The notes beneath the pieces were generated by a model. It worked only from the letters and a program-made list of their open reading frames with translations. It had not been told where the DNA came from and searched no databases. Of a DNA stretch of 64,000 bases, positions 31,897-62,511 are shown piece after piece (the stretch's first letter is position 1; the number at the start of each line of letters is the position of its first letter). Position numbers and translations under genes: made by a program. Source of the stretch: Porphyra umbilicalis (Eukaryota; Rhodophyta; Bangiophyceae; Bangiales; Bangiaceae); assembly GCA_002049455.2 (NCBI GenBank), contig KV918919.1:1-64000 (forward strand), in the 5' to 3' direction.

Positions 31897-32283
31897 ATGC
31901 CGGGCACGGCGGCGCAGGGGCGGTTGGCGGGCGCCCGCTCGACGGCCGGCGGCGGTCGCTCTGGCGGCCAGGGTGGCTCTGCAAGCAGCGGGCGTGCCAC
32001 CGCTGCCCGCAGCGTCGGCGGCAGCGGCAGCGGCGGTGGTGGTGGCGGTGGCGGCGACGGTGGCGGCGGCGGCGGCAGCGGCGGTGGCAGCGGTGGCGGC
32101 GGCGGCAGCGGCAGGCGCGGCGGCACCAACAGCCCGGCGGTGGGCGCCACCCACTCCCGCCGCCCCACTGGCAGTCGGTCGCCGCCGCGGCGAACGACGG
32201 CGGCCATCCTGCTCGCATCTAGTGGCTGGTCGACCGACCCCGAGTCGCTCGCGTCCACAACGCTGGCGCGTGGAAGCGGCGGT

Positions 32284-32322
<39 letters not shown>

Positions 32323-35300
32323 ATGCGGCTCGGCCTCGGCATGCGCCGCGTCGGCAGCGACCGGGGCTTGAGCGACCGCGACCGCGACCGCGAGCGCGGC
32401 AACCTCGTGCGCGTCGGCAGCGACCGCGGGAGCTTTACCAGCGGCGGCGGGCGCGTCGGTGGCGACCGCGGCGGCCTCGTGCGTGTCAACAGTGACCGGA
32501 GTGTGGGCGACCGGGGCGGCGCCGACCGGGGCGGCCGCGACCGGGGTGGCGCCGACCGCGTCGGCAGCGACCGGGGTGGAAGGGAGCGCGTCGGGAGCGA
32601 CCGTGGCGGGAGTGACCGCGCCGGCCGTGACCGGAGCGGCCGCGACCGCGGCGGCGGGGAGCGGGGTAAAGGCGACCGCGTCGGCAACGACCGCGGAGGC
32701 GGGGAGCGGGGTAAAGGCGACCGCGTCGGCAACGAACGCGGCGGCGGGGAGCAGCGGGGTAAAGGCGACCGCGTGGGCAACGACCGCGGCAGCGGGGAGC
32801 GGGGTAAAGGCGACCGCGTCGGCAACGACCGCGGTGGCGGGGAGCAGCGGGGTAAAGGCGACCGCGGCGGCGGCGGTGACCGCGGTGGAACGGACCGTGT
32901 CGGCAGCGACCGGGGTGGCAGCGACCGTGTCGGCAGCGACCGTGGCGGGAGTGAGCGCAGTGGTCGCGACCGGGGCGGCCGCGACCGCGGCGGCGGCGAC
33001 CGCGGTGGCACCGACCGCGTCGGTAGTGACCGGGGTGGCGCCGACCGTGTCGGTAGCGACCGGGGCGGCCGCGACCGCGGCGGCGGCGGCGGCGAGCGGG
33101 GTGGCACCGACCGTGTCGCCGCCGACCGGGGCGGTGGTGGCGACCGGGGTGGCACCGACCGCGTCGGCAACGACCGGGGCGGCGCCGACCGCGTCGGCAC
33201 CGACCGTGGCGGCCGCGACCGCGACCGCGGCGGCGGTGACCGAGGTGGCCCCGACCGCGTCGGCAGCGACCGCGGCGGCGGCGACCGCGGCGGCGGCGAC
33301 CGCGGCGGCGGCGACCGCGGCGGCGGCGACCGCAGCGCCCGCGACCGCACCGGCGGCGACCGCACCGGCGGCGACCGCACCGGCGGCGACCGCACCGGCG
33401 GCGACCGCACCGGCGGCGACCGCGGCGACCGTGGCAACGGCGGCGTCGCGCAGGGGCGGTTCAGCCGGGGGAGCTCGAGCGGGGGCAGCACCGGCGGCGC
33501 CGCCGACGGCGGCGCCCACAGCGGCTACACGAGCCCCCCCCCGGGCGGAGCGGCCACGTGAGCCCCCCCGGGTTTATCGGCGGCGGCGGCAGCTTCCCGG
33601 GCACGACCAGCGCCGGGTGGGGGGAGCTGGCGGGCGTCGGCACGGGCGCCGGGGGGGCCGGCGCAACGCGCGGACCGCCCGTGTTGCCGACGCTGGCCAT
33701 GCCGCCGGCGTCGCCGCCGCCGTCCGTGGCGGCGGCGGAGTCCCCGCGCATCCCCAAGCGCCGCGGCAGCGGCGGGGGCGGCGGCGGTGGCGGCGGCGGC
33801 GAGCGCGACCGCGGGTCGGGGCGCGACCGGGAGCGGGAGCGGGAGCGCCCGCGCACGCCGGGCTCGAGCTCCTCCAAGTCGGGGCCCCTGCCGAACGTCG
33901 GCAATGGCGTCGCGCTCCTCGGCCCAAACGCGTCGGCGGGGGCCGGCAGTTCCGCGGCGCGGAGCACGGGCCTCCTCGGCGCGGGCCTCGGGCCGACGCC
34001 CTCGTCGGCGCCGCCGCCGGCCGACGCGCTGCTGCGGATGCCGTCAATGTTTACTCAAATGAAAAAGGAGGAGGTGCTCGCGCGCTCGGCAATGCCCGCG
34101 TCGGCCATGTTCCCGGTGGAGGAGGCGCAGGTGGGGCCCCGCCACTTCACGCGCTTGCGGCTGCTCGGGCGGGGGGGGATTGGGCGCGTGTACCTGGTCT
34201 TGTTGAAGGGGACGAACAAGCTCTACGCGATGAAGTACGTTTGTTGGGGGGGGGCGGGGGGGGGGGGGACGCGAGCCGACGAATGCCACCGTGTGCGTGT
34301 TTTGGGGTGGTCGGGGCGAGTGGGGATCCTGCATGTGTCACGTGGGTGCCTGTCATTGCGTGGGCGGGAGCGGGCGACGATGTGGCGACAGAGGGGCTGG
34401 GGCCGGTGAGGCACTAGTCTCGAGTGTGTCGAGTGTGGAGCCGCGCGGTAGCGGGGCACCATGCGGTGTTGGTCGTGCGACGTCGTCCTTTAATGCAGTG
34501 GGCAGGGCGTTGTTTTTGTGGCGAGTACGCTCGCCCACGTGCCGGTGTGTGGCAGTTGCATCTTTTTCATGTGCCCCCACTCATGTGCAGGCGACTGACT
34601 CGACGTCTTTTCTCTCGTGGCTGACTGTGTGCACTGTTGGGCCGGCTTGCTCATGCTGTGTGCTCTTGTCGTCGTCTTGGTGATGTGCAGAGTGTACGTT
34701 TCGGTCGTTGCGGTGTTTGCGAGGGGCTTGCCGCGGGCCTTCTTGGTCTTCTCTCGCAGACTCAATCTGTGTGGGACCACGGCTGCAGGCGTTGTCGCCG
34801 ATGCTGACGCGCTCTGGACCTTGCTTGTGCATTTTTTTCTGCGGTGGTGTCGCCACGCATGCATTTGCTCTCTCATTTGTTTTGACCGCCCCTCTCCTGT
34901 CTCACCCCGGCGACGCACAGGCTGACCAAGGAGGAAATGATCGCGCGTAACAAGGTCAAGCGCGTCCTGACCGAGCGGGAGATTCTGGCGACGGCCAACC
35001 ACCCATTCATCATCACAATGTTTGCGTCCTTCCAAACGTCGTCGCGGCTGTGTTTTGTGATGGACTACGCGGCGGGGGGCGAGTTTTTCAGAGTGCTGCA
35101 GCGACAGCCGAACAAGCGGCTGCGGGAGGACGCGGCACGGTTCTACGCGGCGGAGGTGACGCTGGCGTTGGAGTACCTGCACCACATGGGGTTCATCTAC
35201 CGGGACTTGGTACGTTGGCGGGGTGGGGTAGGGATATGTGGGTGGCTCTGCGTGGGTGTGGTGGGGTGTGGGGATGGAAGGGCGGGGGGCTCTGCAATGG

Positions 35301-36641
35301 GTATTGAAGCAAGGGCAATGTGAGTGCGGCCTGGTGGTGTTTGTGCGCTGTGTTGCGGGGTGCCCGGAGCCGCTACTAACCCTGTTGACCGCAATGAATG
35401 CTTCCCTTATTCCACTGCGCTTGCTGCTGCTCGCACACATCTCTCCCTTTTGCCACGTCCACCTCTGCTGAGCAGAAGCCTGAGAACATCCTGATGCGGG
35501 CAAGCGGCCACATTGCCGTGTCGGACTTTGACCTGAGCAAACAGGCGCACCCGGTCGGCCCGCGCATCATCCAACAGCAGATGAAGCTGTCGGACAAAAT
35601 CAGGAAGTCGCTGTCGCTATCTAAGTCGCGCGGCTCGATGTCAAACCTGGCTAACCTGGACATTGTGCACTCGGAGCCAGTCCTGCCGTACCAGACCAAC
35701 TCCTTTGTCGGGTACGTTTGCTGTGGCTTTTGTCTTGATTGGAACGTACGCCAGCCGTGCGTGCGCGTGCTCCCATTATACTGGGCCGTCCCTGGTGTAC
35801 AGAGCGACTAACCATGGAGTATGCATGCTGGTGAGTCATGGTGAGGCTATTGTTTTGCACCCCTTCATTGGCCTCGATTGCTACTGATACAGGACGGAGG
35901 AGTACATCAGCCCAGAGGTTGTCAACGGCGTCGGTCAAACAAGCGCGGTGGACTGGTGGACGCTGGGCATTCTCATCTGGGAGGTACGTTTGGGTGATGT
36001 GGATGCATGTGGGGCATCCGCGTGTCGCATGTATTAGCTCATCCATGGCCTCTACCATCTGTGAAGAGCGGAAGGTCGGGATGTGCAGCATTTTTAGCCG
36101 CAGTAGTACTGACTGATGGTGTTTTGTTTCTGGTTGCCGTTGCCCTGCACGTTCTATACCCTTGATGCCTGCTGGTTGCCATTTTTTACTTGATTCTTGT
36201 CGTACATTCCGCTTCTCTCGTCGTCTTGTCTCACAGATGCTGACCGGCAGCACACCCTTCAAGGGCTCCTGCGCAGACGACACGTTTGCCAACATCCTCT
36301 CGTCGCCGCTCAAGTGGCCCGAAACGGTGGTGGTGTCGTCCGACTGCAAGGCAGTGGTGAAGAAGCTGCTGCGACGGGAGCCCGAGAAGCGGCTGGGGGC
36401 GGAGAATGGGGCGTCGGAGATCAAGGCGGCGCGGTGGTTTGCGGGCGTGAACTTTGCGCTGATCCGTAACGAGACGCCTCCAATCATCCCCCCCGCGGCG
36501 AAGAACGAGCTGGCCGAAACGTCGGCGCCGGCGATGGCGGATGATGGGGACAATGACGCTGCGCTGGACGATCGTGGGGACCAGGACAACCCATTTTCGG
36601 ACTTCAGCCTGAAGCGGGATTCCCTCCATCGGCACTACTGA
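31897..36641 (+). CDS. AGC-VIII-type protein kinase 1, with long DRGG-repeat N-terminus, five exons
   Basis: The kinase domain resembles the fungal NRC-2/FPK1 and plant AGC-VIII (phototropin-type) group. It has G-loop [13 protein letters not shown], the Lys in YAMK, αC TEREIL, YRDLKPENIL, and DFD in place of DFG (VSDFDLSK). A long activation-segment insertion ([18 protein letters not shown]) precedes [14 protein letters not shown] and [16 protein letters not shown]. The C-terminus [11 protein letters not shown] has an FxxF hydrophobic motif, the usual PDK1 docking site. Exons: 31897-34234, 34921-35209, 35476-35711, 35893-35983, 36237-36641. All introns are GT-AG. The N-terminal about 780 residues are low complexity: a Gly/Ser part, a long repeat of Asp-Arg-Gly-Gly units, then Pro-rich. 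There is no LOV domain. The frame changes once in the C run at about 33535-33543. Fungal relatives regulate lipid flippases, but the substrate here is unknown. About 1,118 residues. Confidence 0.88.
32500..33430. repeat. Coding minisatellite: about 15-bp units encoding xDRGG/VG
   Basis: Dozens of units related to GACCGCGGCGGCGGC and its variants encode runs such as [13 protein letters not shown] and [11 protein letters not shown] stretch of near-perfect 15-bp copies (GACCGCACCGGCGGC) lies at about 33353-33420. The unit keeps the reading frame, so copy number can change without frame damage. Confidence 0.85.
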
Positions 36642-37551
36642 TGCGGATGGCCAGCATGTGCGCATGGGCGGGGAGAGCCGAGAGGAGCACCCAAGCGCAC
36701 CCATTGGTATTGCTCCCATGGGTTATTGTATTGTTTTATATTTGTAGATCATGTTTCCGCCGCCGTCTCCGGCCGTCGCTGTTGGTTGCTGGTGGGACTG
36801 CGGAGGGGTCCAGTCGTGCGGCAGACGCGAGCAGACGGAGGCCACCCGCTGTATAGCTCACGTGATGAACAGGGGCCAAACAAGCCGACATCAGAATGCA
36901 GGCTACAAGCGCCGGCGTTGTGGAAACTTGTGAGGCCCAACTGCTATCAATAGGATACCAGCACGGGTTCACAGCACAGCCACACAAGCCACTCGGGGCA
37001 GGAGTGGGCAGTCAGTGCACGGTGCAGCGCGTCGCAGCGCAGCCGCCCAGGAAGCCAGACACGTTGGTGTGACCTTTGATCCCTGGCCGGAGCGATGCTG
37101 CCAGAATTCCTTCTGCGAGGACCACTGCAAATCATGATGCTAGTTTGTTGTGTTCGCGTAACGTTTCTGCTTTGCAAGGGCCCAGATGACACATCAAGTG
37201 GCACACAGACCACGGATGACAAAGCGTGCTACCCACGTATGAGGATACGCATCTGTTCCAGTATTGGATTTCTTTCATAAAGTTATTATTAATCATTGCC
37301 AAGTTTACATTTCCGAGAGATTCTAGTTCGATACTTTTCGCAAGTGGCTCTACAGCTGCAACTCAATACGTGTGAATGTGGCTCAAATGATGGGTTTTAT
37401 GAACACAGACGGTGGGCGTGATGAGTCGGCTGTGGTCAGCAACAGGTGACGTGATTGGGCGGAGCGGTGAAGTGCGCAGTGCAAGTCGTCTCCTAGGCAT
37501 AGGAATAACGCAAGGCTGTTGTCCTGTCGCCTGAGCGCAGTAGTACGAACA
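36642..37551. other. Intergenic, after kinase 1
   Basis: Less GC-rich sequence with an AT-rich patch at about 37270-37300 (GTTATTATTAATCATT). No gene seen. Confidence 0.5.
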
Positions 37552-38099
37552 CTACCCAGCCCGTCGGCGGAATCGAGCCGGGGAGGCTGTTGGTCGTCGA
37601 CGTCCACACCGGATCGGACAGGGGCGGAAATTCCAGCAGAGGAGACCACCCAGGCGGGTGCGTTGGGAGGTCCATCGCGGGCGCCATCCTGCCGACGGTG
37701 CGGAAAGCGAGGGGGGGACGTGCTCAGCCACCCACCGGCAGGTGGCGGCGGTGATGCCGATGACAGCGACAGAGGCAACGGCAGCAATGACCGCCCGACG
37801 GCGCTCACAGTAGAGTGGCGGCGCAAGGCACTCGCCACAGTCCCGCTGCTGAACGCCGGCGGCGGCGGGTGGGGACGGCATACCAACATCATCGCCGCGC
37901 CTTCAACGGCGCCACCGGCGCCCGTCGCGGGCGCTCCGACGCGTCCGCCGACGCAACCAGACGAGCGGTCTCCCGTGCGCGGGAGGGAAAGAGTGGCAGA
38001 CGAGCGGCACCGGGTCAGCCGCCCCTCGGCCGTGAGCGGCCGCGCGCACCGCGCGCTCGAGGCTCGCCGACACGATGGCAGGCGGCGGCTGACGGCCAT
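37552..38099 (-). CDS. Possible small plastid membrane protein (uncertain)
   Basis: From ATG 38099 the minus strand reads MAVSRRLPSCRRASSARCAR, transit-like. Further on, in another frame, it reads QRDCGECLAPPLYCERRRAV, then the hydrophobic IAAVASVAVIGITAATCRWV, ending at 37552. The RRR plus hydrophobic segment resembles a thylakoid-transfer or transmembrane region, and CxxC-like cysteines precede it. The two parts join in phase if a 35-base segment with GTATGC and TTCAG ends is removed, but that is very short for an intron. No homopolymer lies at the break. Real but unproven coding, or chance, are both possible. Confidence 0.25.
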
Positions 38100-38174
38100 G
38101 GTGGCGCACCTACCGTGTTGACCTCTATTGTCCCGTTGACGCGCGAATGTGACAAACCCATCCAGGAGTGGCAG

Positions 38175-38302
38175 AAGGCCACGGCCGCAGAAGGCCACGG
38201 CCGCAGAAGGCCACGGCCGCCGAAGGCCACGGCCGCCGAAGGCCACGGCAGCCGAAGGCCACGGCCGCAGAAGGCCACGGCCGCAGAAGGCCACGGCCGC
38301 AG
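38175..38302. repeat. Minisatellite, 16-bp unit, 8 copies
   Basis: Eight back-to-back copies of AAGGCCACGGCCGCAG, three of which vary by one or two bases (GCCG in place of GCAG, or GGCAG). Each unit contains the palindrome GGCCACGGCC-like core. It is direct, without spacers. Confidence 0.95.
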
Positions 38303-39320
38303 AAGGTACGGTATGCGATTTTCGTATTCCGCAACAATCGTTTTCGGCCACATGCAGCCGCAGCCTATAATTTCGAGGCTTGTAGTTTCTGTCAAGTATT
38401 GTCTAAACTTGTGCTGCCTCAGATCTTTCATCAGCCCTTGCTCAAGCGAAATGAAAACTGATTCGCCAGGGAAGTCCTGACCGAGACGGTTGACTGCTGG
38501 TTGGCCCAGACCACGGACGGCGTGCCGCCTCGGTCTCGGTCGCGCACACCGCCATCGCCCTCCTGCCGGCCTGTGCAGCGCTACCGCCGGCCGCCCGCTC
38601 CCTCCCGAACAGCGCGGCAACAAGGGTGGCGGCTGGGGACACCCCCAACGACCAACGACGAGCGACGAGTAGGCGCCGGGCAACGACCAGCGCGCGGTCG
38701 CCGTGCGTGGGCGACCCACCCACGTCTCGCCCCCACACCCTGTGGCGTCTCGCCCTGCACCAACCGCGGGCCGGACGTGCACAGGACGCCCGGGTGGCTG
38801 CCCCCAACGCTGTGGCAGCGGGCGTGCGCCGCGGCACCACCGCCTCTCTCTGTCACCCCCTCCTGTCCCCCTGCCCTTGCTCCGCCCCCCGTGTGGGTGC
38901 AGCGTTCTCGGTACGGTCCATACCCGTGCCAGGCGGGCCAACGCTACTGCACGCGCGTTGGGGCCCGTGCGTGCCTTGGCCGCCGTGTGTGGCGGCGGGT
39001 GGGAAGGCCCCCCTGTGACGGTTTCGCGCGCTGCTGCCGACCCAGCCGCCGTGCCGCGCGTGACTCGGCGCCGCCCGGACGCCCCTCAACGGCCTGCCGT
39101 GCGTATGTCGACGGGCGTTCACCGCCGTTGTCGACCGCCCGCCCGCGGCGCCTTGTGGTTGTGACCTCGGGCCCTGGCGCCGCCCGCTGCCGTTACTTGT
39201 CCCCCCCCCCTCTACGTGCCCCTGTGCGGCCGTTTTTCGACCAACCGCCATTATCATCCGCCCCCTACCCCCCCCGCGTCCCCTCTGCCGCTGACGTGCT
39301 AAGGAGGCCGTTTCCCCACA
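38303..39320. other. Upstream region of kinase 2
   Basis: The first 200 bp are AT-richer. From 38500 on it is GC-rich with open frames on both strands and no domain. A C/T-rich leader lies at about 39199-39300 before the ATG. Confidence 0.5.
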
Positions 39321-42300
39321 ATGCCGTGGACGGCGCGTGGGGCGCAGCGGCCGAAGTCGCCGCACGTGGACGTTGGCAACACAACCACCAACGACATTGG
39401 CCGCCGCTCATCGACGGGTGGCGGTGGGCGGGGCAGCACGGGCACCAACGGTAGCTGGGCGACCGACGAGTCGAGCGGCGGTCCCGGCGCCGGCGGTAGC
39501 AACGCCGCCGTCGTTGGAGGGGGTGCGGGCAGCACCGCGGGGCTGGTCGCGGGGGCGGTGGCCCGCTTTAGCCGCGGGAGCTCGAGCAGCGGTGGCGGCG
39601 GGCCAGGCGCTTCGTCGGGCGTCTCCCCGCCCGGCGGCTCCGCTCCCGGCGGGCGGAGGGGCGGGGTGCAGCCGCTGTCTCTCCCGGCCATGTTGCCGAC
39701 GCCCGTATCCCCGGCCTCGTCGGCCGGCGTGGCCGGCGTGTCCCCCCTGCCACCCCGCAGCGGCGGCGGCGGCGGCGGTGGAGCCGGCGGCGGCGTCACT
39801 CCCCGGTCGGCTCCGACCCGGGAGGCCCCTACGCGCGGGCCCACCGTGCGTGAGGCTCCCGTCCGCGAAGCCCCATACCGCGAGGCGCCCGTCCGGGAAG
39901 ACGGGCGGACACCAGAGGGCGGATGCCCCGACACACCCGGTGCCGGGGCGACTTCCGGCGTTCCGGCCTTGACGACGGGCGGGGAGGGTGGCGGCTGGGG
40001 TGGCGGGCCGGTTCCGTCAGGCCCGCCTGTCGGTGCGGTGGCGCCGACGGGCGGGTTGGCAGCAGCGATGGCGCCGTCCGAGTCGCTGCTACGCCAACCG
40101 TCGGTTTTCACCCAGATGAAGAAGGAGGAGGTGCTCGCACGGTCTGCAATGCCAGCGTCTGAGATGTTCCCGGTGGAGGAGGCGCAGGTGGGGCCGCGCC
40201 ACTTTACGCGCTTGCGGCTGCTGGGGCGTGGGGGGATTGGACGGGTGTATCTGGTCTTGTTGAAGGGGACGAACAAGCTCTACGCAATGAAGTACGTTTG
40301 CTGGGGGGAGGGGGGGGTGGGAACGCAAACCGTTGACCGGGCCTGTGTGCGTGCTTTGGAGTGGTGTGGACGAGTGCGGATCCTACATGTGTCACGTGGG
40401 TGCCTGTGTTTACGTGGGCTGGAGGAGACGACGCGATGGCGACGGAGAGGCTGGGGCCGACGAGGCAGCTTGTGCCGAGTGTGTCTAGTGCGGGTGGCGG
40501 CGGGGCGCCCTGCCATGCTGGTTGTGCGACGTCGTCCTTCGACGCAGTGGGCAGGGGTTTGTTTTGTGGTAGGCAGCTCGCGCACGTGTCCTCGGGTGTG
40601 GCAGGTGAGTCCTCATGTGCCTCCACTCATGCACAGGCTACTGACTCAACGTCCTCTGCTCGTGGCTGACTGTGTGCACCGTTGTGCTTGCTTGCTCTTG
40701 TCTACTGTTTGCGCCGTCTTGGTGATGTGCAGAGTGTACGTTTTGGTCGTTGTGGTGTTTGCGAGGGGCTTGCCGTGGGCGTGTTCGGTCTTCTCTCGCA
40801 GACACAATCTGTGTGGGACCTCGGCTGCACGCATTGTCACCGTTGCTGACGCCTCTGGACGTTGTCCGTGCATTTTTCTGTTGTGGTGTCGCCACGCATG
40901 CATTTTCTCTCTCTTGTTTGTTCTGACCACCCCTCTTCATTCTTGCCCCGGCGATGCACAGGCTGACCAAGGAGGAGATGATCTCGCGCAACAAGGTCAA
41001 GCGCGTCCTGACCGAGCGGGAGATTCTGGCGACGGCCAACCACCCATTCATCATCACAATGTTTGCGTCCTTCCAAACGTCGTCGCGGCTGTGTTTTGTG
41101 ATGGAGTATGCGGCGGGGGGCGAGTTTTTCAAAGTGCTGCAGCGGCAGCCGAACAAGCGGCTGCGGGAGGACGCGGCACGGTTCTACGCGGCGGAGGTGA
41201 CGCTGGCGTTGGAGTACCTGCACCACATGGGGTTCATCTACCGGGACTTGGTACGTTGGTGGGGTGGCGTGGTGCTGTACAGGTGGCTGTGCGTGGGCGT
41301 GGTGGGGTGGAGAGATTAGGCAGTACGTGCGGGATACTAACGTCGTAGACCTGGTTGCACTTGCTGTGCATTCCATTGCACTTCTTGCATGCCTTCGCAT
41401 ACATGTTTCGCTGCTGCACAGAAACCCGAGAACATCCTGATGCGGGCCAGTGGCCACATTGCGGTGACAGACTTTGACCTGAGCAAGCAGGCGCACCCGG
41501 TCGGACCACGCATCATCCAACAACAGATGAAGCTGTCGGACAAGATCAGAAAATCGTTGTCCCTGTCGAAGACGCGGTCTTCTGCATCCAGCTTGGTCAA
41601 CTTGGACATTGTCAACTCGGAGCCAGTCCTGCCATATCAGACCAACTCTTTTGTCGGGTATGTTTGTTGTGGCCTTTGTCTTAGTTGGAACATACGCCGG
41701 CCGTGCGTGCGCGTGCTCCCATTGTAGTGGGCCGTTCTGGTGTACAGAGTGACTAACCATGGAGTATGCATGCTGGTGAGTCATGGTGAGGCTATTGTTT
41801 TGCACCCCTCGATTGGCCTTGATTGCTACTGATACAGGACGGAGGAGTACATCAGCCCAGAGGTTGTCAACGGCGTCGGTCAAACAAGCGCGGTGGACTG
41901 GTGGACGCTGGGCATTCTCATCTGGGAGGTACGTTTGGGTGATGTGGATGCATGTGGGGCATCCGCGTGTCGCATGTATTAGCTCATCCATGGCCTCTAC
42001 CAGCTGTGAAGAGCGTAGCGCCGGGATGTGCATGCAGTTCTTGCCCGTAACGGTACTGACTGACCGTGTGTTGTTTCTGGTTGCCCTCGCCCTGCGCATA
42101 CTATTCTCCCGATGCGTCCTGCCTCGCCCTGCGCATACTATTCTCCCGATTCGTCCTGGTTGGCCTTCCGTACGCGTTTTGCGTCATGCATTTCGTTTTT
42201 CTGTGGCTTTTCGCACAGATGCTGACCGGCGGGACACCCTTCAAGGGCTCCTGCGCAGACGACACGTTTGCCAATATCCTCTCGTCGCCGCTCAAGTGGC

Positions 42301-42620
42301 CCGACACGGTGGCGGTGTCGTCCGACTGCAAGACAGTGGTGAAGAAGCTGTTGCGGCGGGAGCCCGAGAAGCGGCTGGGTGCGGAGAATGGGGCGTCGGA
42401 GATCAAGGCGGCGCGGTGGTTCGCGGGCGTGAACTTTGCGCTGATCCGTAACGAGGTGCCGCCGATCATCCCCGCGGCACGGGACGAGCAGGCCGAAACG
42501 TCGGCGCCGGCGATGGCGGATGATGGGGACAATGACGCTGCGCTGGACGATCGTGGGGACCAGGACAACCCATTTTCGGACTTCAGCCTGAAGCGGGAGG
42601 CCCTTCACCGGCATTACTGA
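39321..42620 (+). CDS. AGC-VIII-type protein kinase 2, tandem paralogue, five exons
   Basis: The 662-residue product has the same kinase core as its neighbour about 7 kb upstream: [33 protein letters not shown] (DFD), the insertion [32 protein letters not shown], and the FxxF ending [11 protein letters not shown]. Exons: 39321-40291, 40962-41250, 41422-41657, 41838-41928, 42219-42620. Exons 2, 3 and 4 have exactly the same lengths as in kinase 1 (289, 236 and 91 bp). The reading frame is intact. The N-terminus [20 protein letters not shown] is unrelated to kinase 1 until the shared ARFSRGSSS motif and then [20 protein letters not shown]. Instead of DRGG units it has an R-x-A-P repeat ([20 protein letters not shown]). 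No LOV domain. Confidence 0.92.
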
Positions 42621-47678: not shown

Positions 47679-48217
47679 TTAACTTAACGTTCCACTTGGA
47701 GTTGGCTTCGAGGCAACGGGTCCGAACAAGTGCAATTGTGATTGGTCCTATTTACGGTGTGATTTGTGGTCTGTCTGGGCCATAGATTCATCATCCTGCC
47801 TCCACCAAGCTAAATATCGGGCCCGTGCTGCTATGGACGTGGAGACAGCAGCCAATGGGCGTGGGACGTGCGGTCTCTGCCGCATGGTCCAATATGGAGC
47901 GAGATCGGCATGCGGGCGTCCCAGCGTCTCGCCGCGCGACGCGCGGCCGGCGTCCGCCCTGGATTTGCCAAGACGAGCCGTCACTCGCCGCCAGCCCCGA
48001 CACGTCGGCCACGCCAACTAGCTCGGGTGTCTGTGCATCGGACTTGAGCCGCGTGCCGCCGCCGTCATCTCTGGCGAAAACATCGACCGCGCAGTGTACG
48101 TGTCGTTGACACCCACGCCGGCACACGCCACCGCCGCTCTGTGTCCTCTCCGACTCTCACCTCCTTCCTTCTCCCTTCGCTCCACCTTCCTGTTCCTCCC
48201 CCCCTCCCACCACCATC
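47679..48217. other. Upstream region of PDX1
   Basis: Mixed composition, then a C/T-rich leader. No gene seen. An AT-rich stretch GCTAAATATCG at about 47809 could hold a weak promoter element. Confidence 0.5.
48125..48217 (+). promoter_or_regulatory. Pyrimidine-rich leader before PDX1
   Basis: From about 48125 to the ATG at 48218 the + strand is mostly C and T (for example CTCACCTCCTTCCTTCTCCC), ending CACCACCATCATG. The same kind of tract precedes many genes here, and it probably marks the transcription start or 5' UTR. Confidence 0.5.
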
Positions 48218-49201
48218 ATGAACGGTCACGCCAACGGCGGCGCGGCCGCACCCGGCGCTGCGCTGGACGGCTCGACTTTTGCCGCGACGGCCCGCGCGGT
48301 GTCTTCGTCGGAGGACATCTCATCCAAGTATGCGGTCAAGGTCGGCCTTGCCCAGATGCTCAAGGGCGGCGTCATTATGGACGTTGTCACCCCCGAGCAG
48401 GCGGTCATTGCGGAGCAGGCGGGCGCCTGCGCGGTCATGGCGCTGGAGCGCATCCCCGCGGACATCCGCGCCAACGGGGAGGTTGCCCGCATGTCGGACC
48501 CGGCGATGATTGCGTCCATCCAGGCGGCCGTCTCCATCCCGGTCATGGCCAAGGCCCGCATCGGCCACTTTGTCGAGGGGCAGATTCTCGAGGCCCTCGG
48601 CGTCGACTACATTGACGAGTCGGAGGTGCTGACGCCTGCCGACGAGGTCAACCACATTGACAAGCACGACTTTTCGGTGCCCTTTGTGTGTGGCTGCCGC
48701 AACCTTGGTGAGGCCCTCCGCCGCATTGCCGAGGGCGCCGCCTTCATCCGCACCAAGGGTGAGGCCGGCACTGGCAACGTTGTCGAGGCTGTCCGCCACG
48801 CGCGGTCGGTCAATGGCCAGATTCGGAAGCTGAAGACCATGGACGACGCGGAGCTGTACACCTTTGCCAAGGAACTCGGCGCGCCTCTGGAGCTGGTGCG
48901 GCGGACAAAGGAGCTCGGCCGCCTGCCGGTTGTTCAGTTTGCGGCGGGTGGCGTGGCCACCCCCGCCGACGCGGCTCTGATGATGCAGCTCGGCCTTGAC
49001 GGCGTCTTTGTCGGCAGCGGCATCTTCAAGTCAGAAGAGCCTGCCAAGCGCGCGGCCGCCATTGTGCGGGCGGTGGCCAACTTCCGGGACGCCAAGGTCC
49101 TGAAGGAGTGTAGCACGGGCATTGGCGCGCCGATGGTCGGGATTGAGATGGATGCGCTCGTGCAGAAGTGGGCGGGCGACGCCCGGCACGGCACTCACTA
49201 G
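48218..49201 (+). CDS. PDX1: Pyridoxal 5'-phosphate synthase subunit PDX1 (PdxS/SNZ)
   Basis: PDX1 makes pyridoxal 5'-phosphate from ribose 5-phosphate, glyceraldehyde 3-phosphate and ammonia supplied by PDX2. The 327-residue protein is full length for the family. Marks include [50 protein letters not shown], the active-site Lys in [20 protein letters not shown] (family K81), [13 protein letters not shown], and [20 protein letters not shown] with the second active-site Lys (family K149). The C-terminal part has [20 protein letters not shown] and [14 protein letters not shown]. The first about 30 residues are an Ala/Gly-rich extension; there is no clear targeting peptide, so it is probably cytosolic as in plants. 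No intron. No PDX2 gene is in the window. Confidence 0.98.
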
Positions 49202-60935: not shown

Positions 60936-62511
60936 CTAATACTTGTACCCGGCCTCGAACGTGCCCACGACGTCCGCCGTCGGCTCCGAGCCAGGCACGT
61001 ACTCGCCCTTCGAGGCCTTGGAGTTGGCGCGCGCCCGGGCCATGAGCGCCGCCTGCGCGGCCCCGACATTGTCCTTCTTGCCCGCCCACGCCTTGAGCGT
61101 CGACTGCTGCAGGGCACGGCCGTAGCTGAAGGTCAGCGCCCACGGGCCCTTGCGCTGGATCTTGTTCATGGCGTTGAGGTTGACCGACGCCTCCTCCTCA
61201 GACATGCCGCCCGACAGGAAGGTCACACCGGCAACGGCCGGCGGCACGCGGCGCTCCAGCGTCCGGACGGTGTAAGCACCAACCTGCTCGGGCGAGGTCT
61301 TGCCCTTCCAGTCCGCGCCCGGGACGGTCATGTTGGGCTTGAGGAGCGAGCCCTCCAGGTACACGCCGCACAGGTCGCACGCCTTGTAGACGGCCGCCAG
61401 CACCTTCTCCTGGACCGCCGCGGTGGTGTCAATGTCGTGGTCCCCGTCCATGAGGATTTCGGGCTCAATGATCGGCACCAGGCCAGCGTCCTGGACGGTC
61501 TTGGCGTACCGGGCCAGGCCCCACGCGTTCTCCTGGATGCTCAGGTTGGACGGCGTGTTGCCAGAAATCTGCAGCACCGCGCGCCACTTGGCGAAGCGGG
61601 CGCCCTGCTTGTAGTAGGCCGCCGCGCGCTCCGCGAGGCCGTCCAGGCCCGTGCACCACGTCTCAAACGACTCGGCACCGCCGAGCGGAGCCAGGCCCAT
61701 GTCGACCTTGATGCCAGGGATGACGCCAATGGCCTTCAGGCAGTCAACAAACGGCTTGCCCTCCGCCGAGTTCTGGTACAGGGTCTCCTCGTACAGGATG
61801 GCGCCCGAGATGAACTCACCGAGGCCCTCGCAGTTGAACAGGAGGCCACGGTACGCCTGGCGGTTCTCCTCAGTGTTCTCCACGCCAATAGATGCCAGGC
61901 GCTTGCCAATGGTCTTCGTCGACTCGTCGACGGCCAGGATACCCTTGCCGGGCGAGGCAATGGCCTTGGCGGTGGCCGCCAGCTCGTCGGCAAACTTGGC
62001 CGCCTCACCCACAACACCAGCGTTGTTGGTGCTCATGCGCACCGGGGCGGTCGAGGCAGGCAGGCGAGCAGCGACATGGCCGCGAGCCACAAAGGCCGTC
62101 TCGCCAACCCTGTGCACGCAGATAACAAGACACAAAATGCAAGGACAGGACGAAAGAGGGCAACAGGAGCGCAGGTTAGAAAAGCATGCTCAGAATGATG
62201 CAAGCGAGCACATGCCCACATGTGGCTGTAGGCTGCGAGGCAGCCAGTCGCGCACCCAACCTCGATTCCTGCCGAGATCTCGCGCACCGCTGCGCCAGCC
62301 GAGATCTCGCGCACCGCTGCGCCAGCATGAATCCCCCCACGGACACCCATTGTCGACATCAAAGCACGCGCGACCATCCAGCACAACCGCCAAACCGTAG
62401 ACGCCAAGCGTCCTGCACGCCCTCGAGTGTTTTCAATACGTACTGGCAGGTGGCGCGGGCAGTGGTAGCGGCCGAGCCGAGGGCAACCGACGCGGCAGCG
62501 ACAAAGGCCAT
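60936..62511 (-). CDS. FBA: Fructose-bisphosphate aldolase class I, plastid-type, two exons
   Basis: Class I aldolase splits fructose 1,6-bisphosphate (or forms it in the Calvin cycle). Exon 1 is 62511-62444 and exon 2 is 62109-60936. The 334-bp intron has donor GTACGT and acceptor GTGCACAG, in phase 2. Together they give [20 protein letters not shown], then [19 protein letters not shown], a transit-like peptide of about 55 residues, and then the enzyme. Family marks are [80 protein letters not shown], the Schiff-base Lys in [16 protein letters not shown], and [14 protein letters not shown]. The C-terminus GTFEAGYKY ends in the aromatic Tyr typical of the class. Total 413 residues. The targeting peptide split off by an intron suggests plastid location. 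Confidence 0.96.
62271..62324. repeat. Perfect 27-bp tandem duplication inside the aldolase intron
   Basis: Two exact copies of a 27-base unit, 62271-62297 and 62298-62324. The unit begins GCCGAGATCTCGCGC and contains the palindrome CGAGATCTCG. Confidence 0.9.

Follow-up and report, generated by a model that had tools for sequence, protein, structure and literature searches.

Two AGC-type kinase genes of the red alga Porphyra umbilicalis, here called A and B, share a patchy mosaic of similarity that is not a plain case of introns being better conserved than exons. Both lie in the window, the 64,000-nucleotide stretch of contig KV918919.1 that was analysed, where A (31897-36641) and B (39321-42620) form a head-to-tail tandem, both on the plus strand (Table 1). 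In all likelihood they descend from an old tandem duplication of an AGC kinase gene and have been patched by repeated interlocus gene conversion while their repeat-rich tails drifted. At least three recent tracts are most likely present: one in exon 2, one running from intron 3 through exon 4 into intron 4, and one in parts of exon 5.

Gene organisation and kinase motifs

Exon-by-exon comparison reveals that the intron positions are common to A and B and that all introns are GT..AG. The first-pass annotation had reported equal lengths for exons 2, 3 and 4, and these are indeed 289, 236 and 91 nt in both genes, with exon 5 only 3 nt apart (405 nt in A, 402 nt in B). The protein of the spliced kinase parts is 94% identical between the two. 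Intron 4 is 290 nt in B and 253 nt in A, and a 37-nt duplication within B intron 4 (42085-42158, two copies, 97% matches) equals this length excess. Between the kinase genes lies a 16-nt tandem repeat of 8.5 copies with 96% matches (38171-38306). Pfam matches to SOR/SNZ, which belongs to vitamin B6 synthesis, and to class I fructose-bisphosphate aldolase were obtained in the neighbouring open frames 48110-49198 (+) and 60939-62189 (-), and two other neighbouring frames of the window gave no Pfam match.

Table 1 Features of kinase genes A and B. Positions are those of the window; tract assignments follow the conversion reading.
Feature	Position	Strand	Basis
Gene A N-terminal reading frame, starts MPGTAAQGR; low-complexity Gly/Ser and G/D/R-repeat tail	31897..33533	+	frame analysis
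Gene A tandem array, 15/30/45-nt units, in-frame G-D-R repeats; B without array	32506..33427	+	Tandem Repeats Finder
C9 homopolymer, apparent reading-frame change in A	33534..33542	+	frame and GC-by-phase analysis
Gene A exon 1, B-alignable part, 87% identity	34026..34234	+	alignment
Gene A intron 1, 81% identical to B	34235..34920	+	alignment, genome search
Gene A exon 2, kinase N-lobe to catalytic loop; probable recent conversion tract	34921..35209	+	97.6% identity, fourfold 2/46
Probable conversion tract 1 (= B 40990-41259), identical runs 116 and 114 bp	34949..35218	+	run test
Gene A intron 2, 266 nt (B 171 nt), poorly alignable	35210..35475	+	alignment
Gene A exon 3, DFDLS and activation-segment insertion; apparently unconverted, fourfold 14/33	35476..35711	+	alignment
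Gene A intron 3	35712..35892	+	alignment; position not used in C or D
Probable conversion tract 2 (= B 41751-42002), spans intron 3/exon 4/intron 4	35806..36057	+	252 columns, 3 mismatches
Gene A exon 4, identical to B	35893..35983	+	alignment
Gene A exon 5 and stop codon, 94% identical to B; contains tract 3	36237..36641	+	alignment
Probable tract 3 in exon 5, identical run 108 bp (= B 42491-42598)	36512..36619	+	run test
Gene B exon 1, single open frame, ATG into kinase domain	39321..40291	+	alignment, frame analysis
Gene B intron 1	40292..40961	+	alignment, genome search
Gene B exon 2	40962..41250	+	alignment
Gene B exon 3	41422..41657	+	alignment
Gene B exon 4	41838..41928	+	alignment
Gene B exon 5 and stop codon	42219..42620	+	alignment

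Pfam assigns a protein kinase domain to the encoded protein, with a placement among AGC-type kinases, and the top-ranked solved structures in a PDB search are AGC kinases such as RSK and Akt. Two paralogues from the same genome, the next closest after A and B in the genome search, served as outgroups: C (C279, minus strand, L023) and D (C196, L024). All four kinases carry DFD instead of DFG, in the form DFDLSK. The activation loop reads TNSFVGTEEY in A and B, TTSFVGTEEY in C and STSFVGTAEY in D, the last of which fits SxSFVGTxEY, and in the alignment an S-E-P ahead of the activation loop is invariant in the kinases. The fungal flippase kinases Fpk1/NRC-2 are AGC kinases with a DFD motif and an insertion, and may resemble A and B in these motifs. 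In this genome, phycobilisome genes occur alongside four kinases whose motifs are AGCVIII-like (DFDLS, long insertion, SFVGT loop), and contig C665 of the 83.8-Mb, 665-contig assembly holds eight near full-length phycobilisome-family matches, as fits a red-algal host.

Judged from their sequences, the A and B kinases have AGCVIII-like motifs. Plant AGCVIII kinases are described, in the portion of the source drawn on here, as having DFDLS for DFG, an insertion of 36-118 residues, an SFVGTxEY loop and an AEP motif (PMC3499706). A and B resemble them in DFDLS, in the long insertion (54 residues between DFDLS and SFVGTEEY in A, within that range), in SFVGTxEY and in the S-E-P, which recalls the AEP motif; they differ in a loop that is TNSFVGTEEY rather than SxSFVGTxEY and in the low-complexity N-tail. 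The same portion of that source calls the insertion plant-only, and a 2015 survey, in the part of its text available, recovered zero phototropins from red algae (PMC4532919).

Similarity between A and B is a mosaic

Segment by segment, the identity of A to B is 86.6% in the conserved part of exon 1, 97.6% in exon 2, 83.9% in exon 3, 100% in exon 4 and 94.0% in exon 5, and it is 81.4, 55.9 (with 97 gap columns), 92.2 and 75.9% in introns 1 to 4. The N-terminal coding part stands at 55.5% with 1,417 gap columns, in agreement with the earlier description of the coding sequence 5' of the conserved exon 1 part as nearly unrelated. The broader claim that introns are better conserved than exons holds for exon 3 (84%), the conserved part of exon 1 (87%) and the N-terminus, each of which lies below some intron, but fails for exons 2, 4 and 5 (98, 100 and 94%), which exceed every whole intron. 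The introns themselves are divided: intron 1, as had been stated, is clearly alignable, and intron 3 and the start of intron 4 also align well, whereas divergence is heavy in intron 2 and towards the 3' end of intron 4. Within intron 4 mismatches rise from 0/74 at the start to 32/104 in the late part, and within intron 3 they fall from 11/93 at its start to 3/87 at its end. The flanks, 300 bp on each side, are unalignable, also beyond the stop codon (53% identity 5', 43% 3').

The near-identical block that had been noticed from the end of intron 3 through an identical exon 4 into intron 4 is present at 35806-36057 (B 41751-42002), its 252 columns holding 3 mismatches and zero gaps, and a DNA search of the 83.8-Mb assembly with the block region found it in at least two places, A and B, the tool counts being lower bounds. 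Near-identity had been thought confined to the 3' part, but exon 2 is a tract too. The eight longest identical runs measure 182, 116, 114, 108, 59, 41, 41 and 35 bp, and each was equalled at its rank in 0/10,000 shuffles of all mismatch events. Tract ends ignore exon borders, with tract 1 reaching 9 nt into intron 2 and tract 2 starting within intron 3 and ending within intron 4. The intron sites of tract 2 differ at 3 of 161 positions, against 124/667 in intron 1 (p = 1.4e-9). Intron 1 is in turn less diverged than the fourfold sites of exon 1 (16/42; p = 0.004), which either an older exchange or intron constraint would fit.

Silent divergence is patchy in the A-B pair alone

Fourfold mismatch between A and B, counted where the first two codon bases agree between the genes, is 15/40, 2/46, 14/33, 0/14 and 6/67 in exons 1 to 5 (p = 3.8e-7). 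By the codons of A alone the counts are 16/42, 2/47, 17/39, 0/15 and 6/74, and NG86 synonymous divergence is 0.58, 0.06, 0.83, 0.00 and 0.13. The recent duplication that the first-pass annotation had proposed finds no support, since the fourfold values of exons 1 and 3, the poorly alignable intron 2 and the unalignable flanks point to an old one.

Against the outgroups the exons are uniform. The A-C counts are 15/30, 25/38, 16/26, 4/10 and 22/39 (p = 0.52), and the B-C, A-D, B-D and C-D pairs are likewise homogeneous across exons (p 0.59-0.99). Exon 4 differs from C and D at the usual rate (4/10 and 5/11 fourfold sites), on a base of only 10-14 fourfold sites. Because A-B is patchy but the five outgroup pairs are uniform, the near-identity is not accounted for by slow coding sites; neither exon 2 nor exon 4 is markedly slow, and both are recent in the A-B pair alone. 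This pair-specific low divergence (p 0.52-0.99 in the five outgroup pairs) is read at coding sites that are near saturation between A/B and C/D (40-70% mismatch), so that the control excludes strong constraint while leaving room for mild constraint in exons 2 and 5. As C and D lack introns 1 and 3, the outgroup test does not extend to constraint on introns.

Clusters of silent identity between A and B are longer than chance. Silent-site runs of 119, 59, 43, 38, 36 and 29 sites were each equalled at their rank in 0/10,000 shuffles stratified by site class (fourfold, other third positions, intron), and after removal of intron 2 and 36062-36236 the six p-values range from 0 to 0.0017. Gene conversion, earlier suggested for the 3' part, is well supported, but as several separate tracts and not as one event.

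N-terminal tails and an apparent frame change in gene A

The suggestion that repeats drove change at the N-terminus is supported by the tandem array of about 0.9 kb in A and its lack in B, where the same scan of the N-terminal coding part returned a 36-bp GCG run only. Wholesale replacement of the N-terminus, offered alongside it, fits poorly, as weak anchors remain. The RFSRGSSS anchor (A 33457-33480, B 39564-39587) shows three base differences, all at third positions, and a further anchor aligns 33675-33833 with 39684-39824 (162 columns, 71.6%), where other low-complexity stretches of the window match too. The score of the tail alignment was reached in 3/500 and 13/500 shuffles for two parts of A and in 13/500 and 16/500 for two sub-parts, mildly significant values in low-complexity tails that weaken the test. 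These sequences suggest that the tails of A and B are one ancestral tail altered by repeats, not replaced.

Gene A exon 1 had been drawn as a single open frame, but reading on from 31897 meets a stop at 33559. The frame that encodes the kinase opens no earlier than 33240, and its earliest ATG lies at 33699. Third-position G+C is 1.0 for the frame of 31897 in 33440-33533, and for the kinase frame it is 0.94 in 33543-33700 and 0.96 in 33700-34025; the GC-by-phase signal is uninformative in A 31897-33440 and in B 39700-40082. The frame change is best placed at the C9 run. A real frameshift, a length polymorphism, a sequencing or assembly error and an undetected intron all fit, and B has no intron there. 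If the frameshift is real, the A kinase would start at 33699 or later.

Alternative explanations for the near-identical block

Purifying selection on a non-coding element in the block, whether a 28-nt micro-exon or a structured RNA, is very unlikely to have produced the near-identity. A 28-nt stretch framed by TGTACAG and GTGAGT does occur in both genes (A 35803-35830, B 41748-41775) with one difference, and intronic sites in the block differ as rarely as given above, but a micro-exon-like pattern appears in about 5% of first-order shuffles of intron 3. As 28 is not a multiple of three, inclusion of such a micro-exon would cause a frameshift within the activation loop, and it could serve as a poison exon. 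The folding of two intron pieces is not clearly above shuffles (z 0.30; z -1.17, with 22/200 shuffles at least as stable), and Rfam up to E = 1 over 11.5 kb gave a single match, a serC leader (E 0.63) below its gathering score and in B exon 5 outside the block. With folding near shuffles and zero Rfam matches at gathering score, a structured RNA in the block was rejected. Coding sequence is, moreover, equally near-identical in exon 2 and parts of exon 5, and exon 4 evolves at its usual rate relative to C and D.

An assembly or polishing artefact, in which mis-mapped reads made similar stretches identical, is less probable still. The tracts are short and sited where the copies are most alike, and the C9 run and frame change indicate that the consensus of A may be imperfect there; yet the intron sequence of tract 2 sits between clearly different flanks and keeps its 3 mismatches, and intermediate levels of divergence, as in exon 5 and intron 1, would not be expected from polishing. 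A lone recent duplication, or one event converting the entire 3' part, in either case with a newly acquired N-terminus, would match the sharp drop in similarity 5' of 34026, but we give this reading almost no weight. Inside that very part, exons 2 and 4 are far closer between the copies than intron 2, exon 3 and late intron 4, a mosaic that contradicts a single event, and N-terminal anchors persist.

Probable intron gain on the A/B branch

The positions of introns 2 and 4 are common to A, B, C and D, and C has an intron of its own eight codons past the intron 3 site. Introns 1 and 3, present in A and B and absent from C and D, probably arose, by parsimony, in the A/B lineage ahead of its duplication. 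C and D carry an extra codon at the intron 1 site (YAMKQLTK or YAMKELTK, against YAMK-LTK in A and B), and the gain of intron 1 may have been accompanied by the loss of one codon in A/B. That intron 1 is one of many mobile intron copies was rejected: its genome search matches are A and B only, as lower-bound counts.

A probable history of repeated conversion between old duplicates

We favour gene conversion between old duplicates, for which an old tandem duplication of an AGC kinase gene would be the first step. On several later occasions, short non-reciprocal exchanges would have copied pieces of one gene over the other. Tract 1 would lie in exon 2 and run just into intron 2, and tract 2 would begin towards the 3' end of intron 3, take in exon 4 and end in intron 4, while further exchanges would have covered stretches of exon 5. 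Older exchanges may lie in intron 1 and in the 5' part of intron 3. The segments that would have escaped conversion, and that would show the true age of the pair, are intron 2, late intron 4, exon 3 and the conserved part of exon 1. Mispairing of the tandem copies with short non-reciprocal repair could yield short tracts across exon borders, and the reach of each exchange could be limited by diverged stretches such as intron 2. In the N-terminal tails, GC-rich repeats would have expanded and been lost, most visibly the G/D/R array in A. A scan of GTDB for orthologues returned 44 loci, all with bacterial titles and none red-algal, with best segments of 23-32% identity, and 24 stretches matched in a viral collection, none of them confirmed; neither set entered the comparison. 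As two sequences, A and B, without an orthologue, the data fix neither the direction nor the number nor the age of the exchanges.

The closest known parallel is found in the primate L/M opsins, tandem duplicates which, in the part of the gibbon study drawn on here, have introns less diverged than exons through gene conversion, with some exons escaped, the tracts being detected with GENECONV, a clustered-identity test (PMC3213168). A and B share with them the tandem arrangement, conversion-homogenised introns and escaped exons, and the run test used here is akin to GENECONV; opsins, however, convert mostly introns, whereas exons 2, 4 and 5 of A and B also appear converted. Selection for spectral difference is the explanation given there for the escape of opsin exons (PMC3213168), while for A and B there are candidate reasons only.

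One candidate is that selection filters conversion, so that the shared catalytic core is kept homogeneous and the N-tail and the exon 3 activation-segment insertion are kept different, a reading we consider rather unlikely. It agrees with the unconverted exon 3, and 6/54 insertion residues differ between A and B against 8/259 others in positions 38-350 of the aligned part (Fisher p = 0.02; split chosen post hoc). Against it, silent divergence extends through the whole of exon 3, the catalytic part as well, and the dissimilar copies of intron 2 next to exon 3 could block exchange mechanically.

Among the matches listed for literature on red-algal AGC kinases or gene conversion, no title concerns the A/B pair, which is not proof of absence. 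The Pyropia yezoensis genome paper, in the part of its main text available, mentions gene conversion solely as a source of GC bias and does not mention kinases (PMC7423979). The kind of process, conversion between tandem duplicates, is already known, and the place, a red alga, is new.

Implications

If selection did filter the exchanges, the pair would be one enzyme with two targeting or regulatory settings, a signalling enzyme that diversifies its regulatory modules while its core stays shared. On the favoured history of repeated conversion, A and B provide a clean, checkable example of patchy gene conversion in a red alga. They also carry a warning for dating, as the same duplication appears brand new or near saturation according to the exon chosen.
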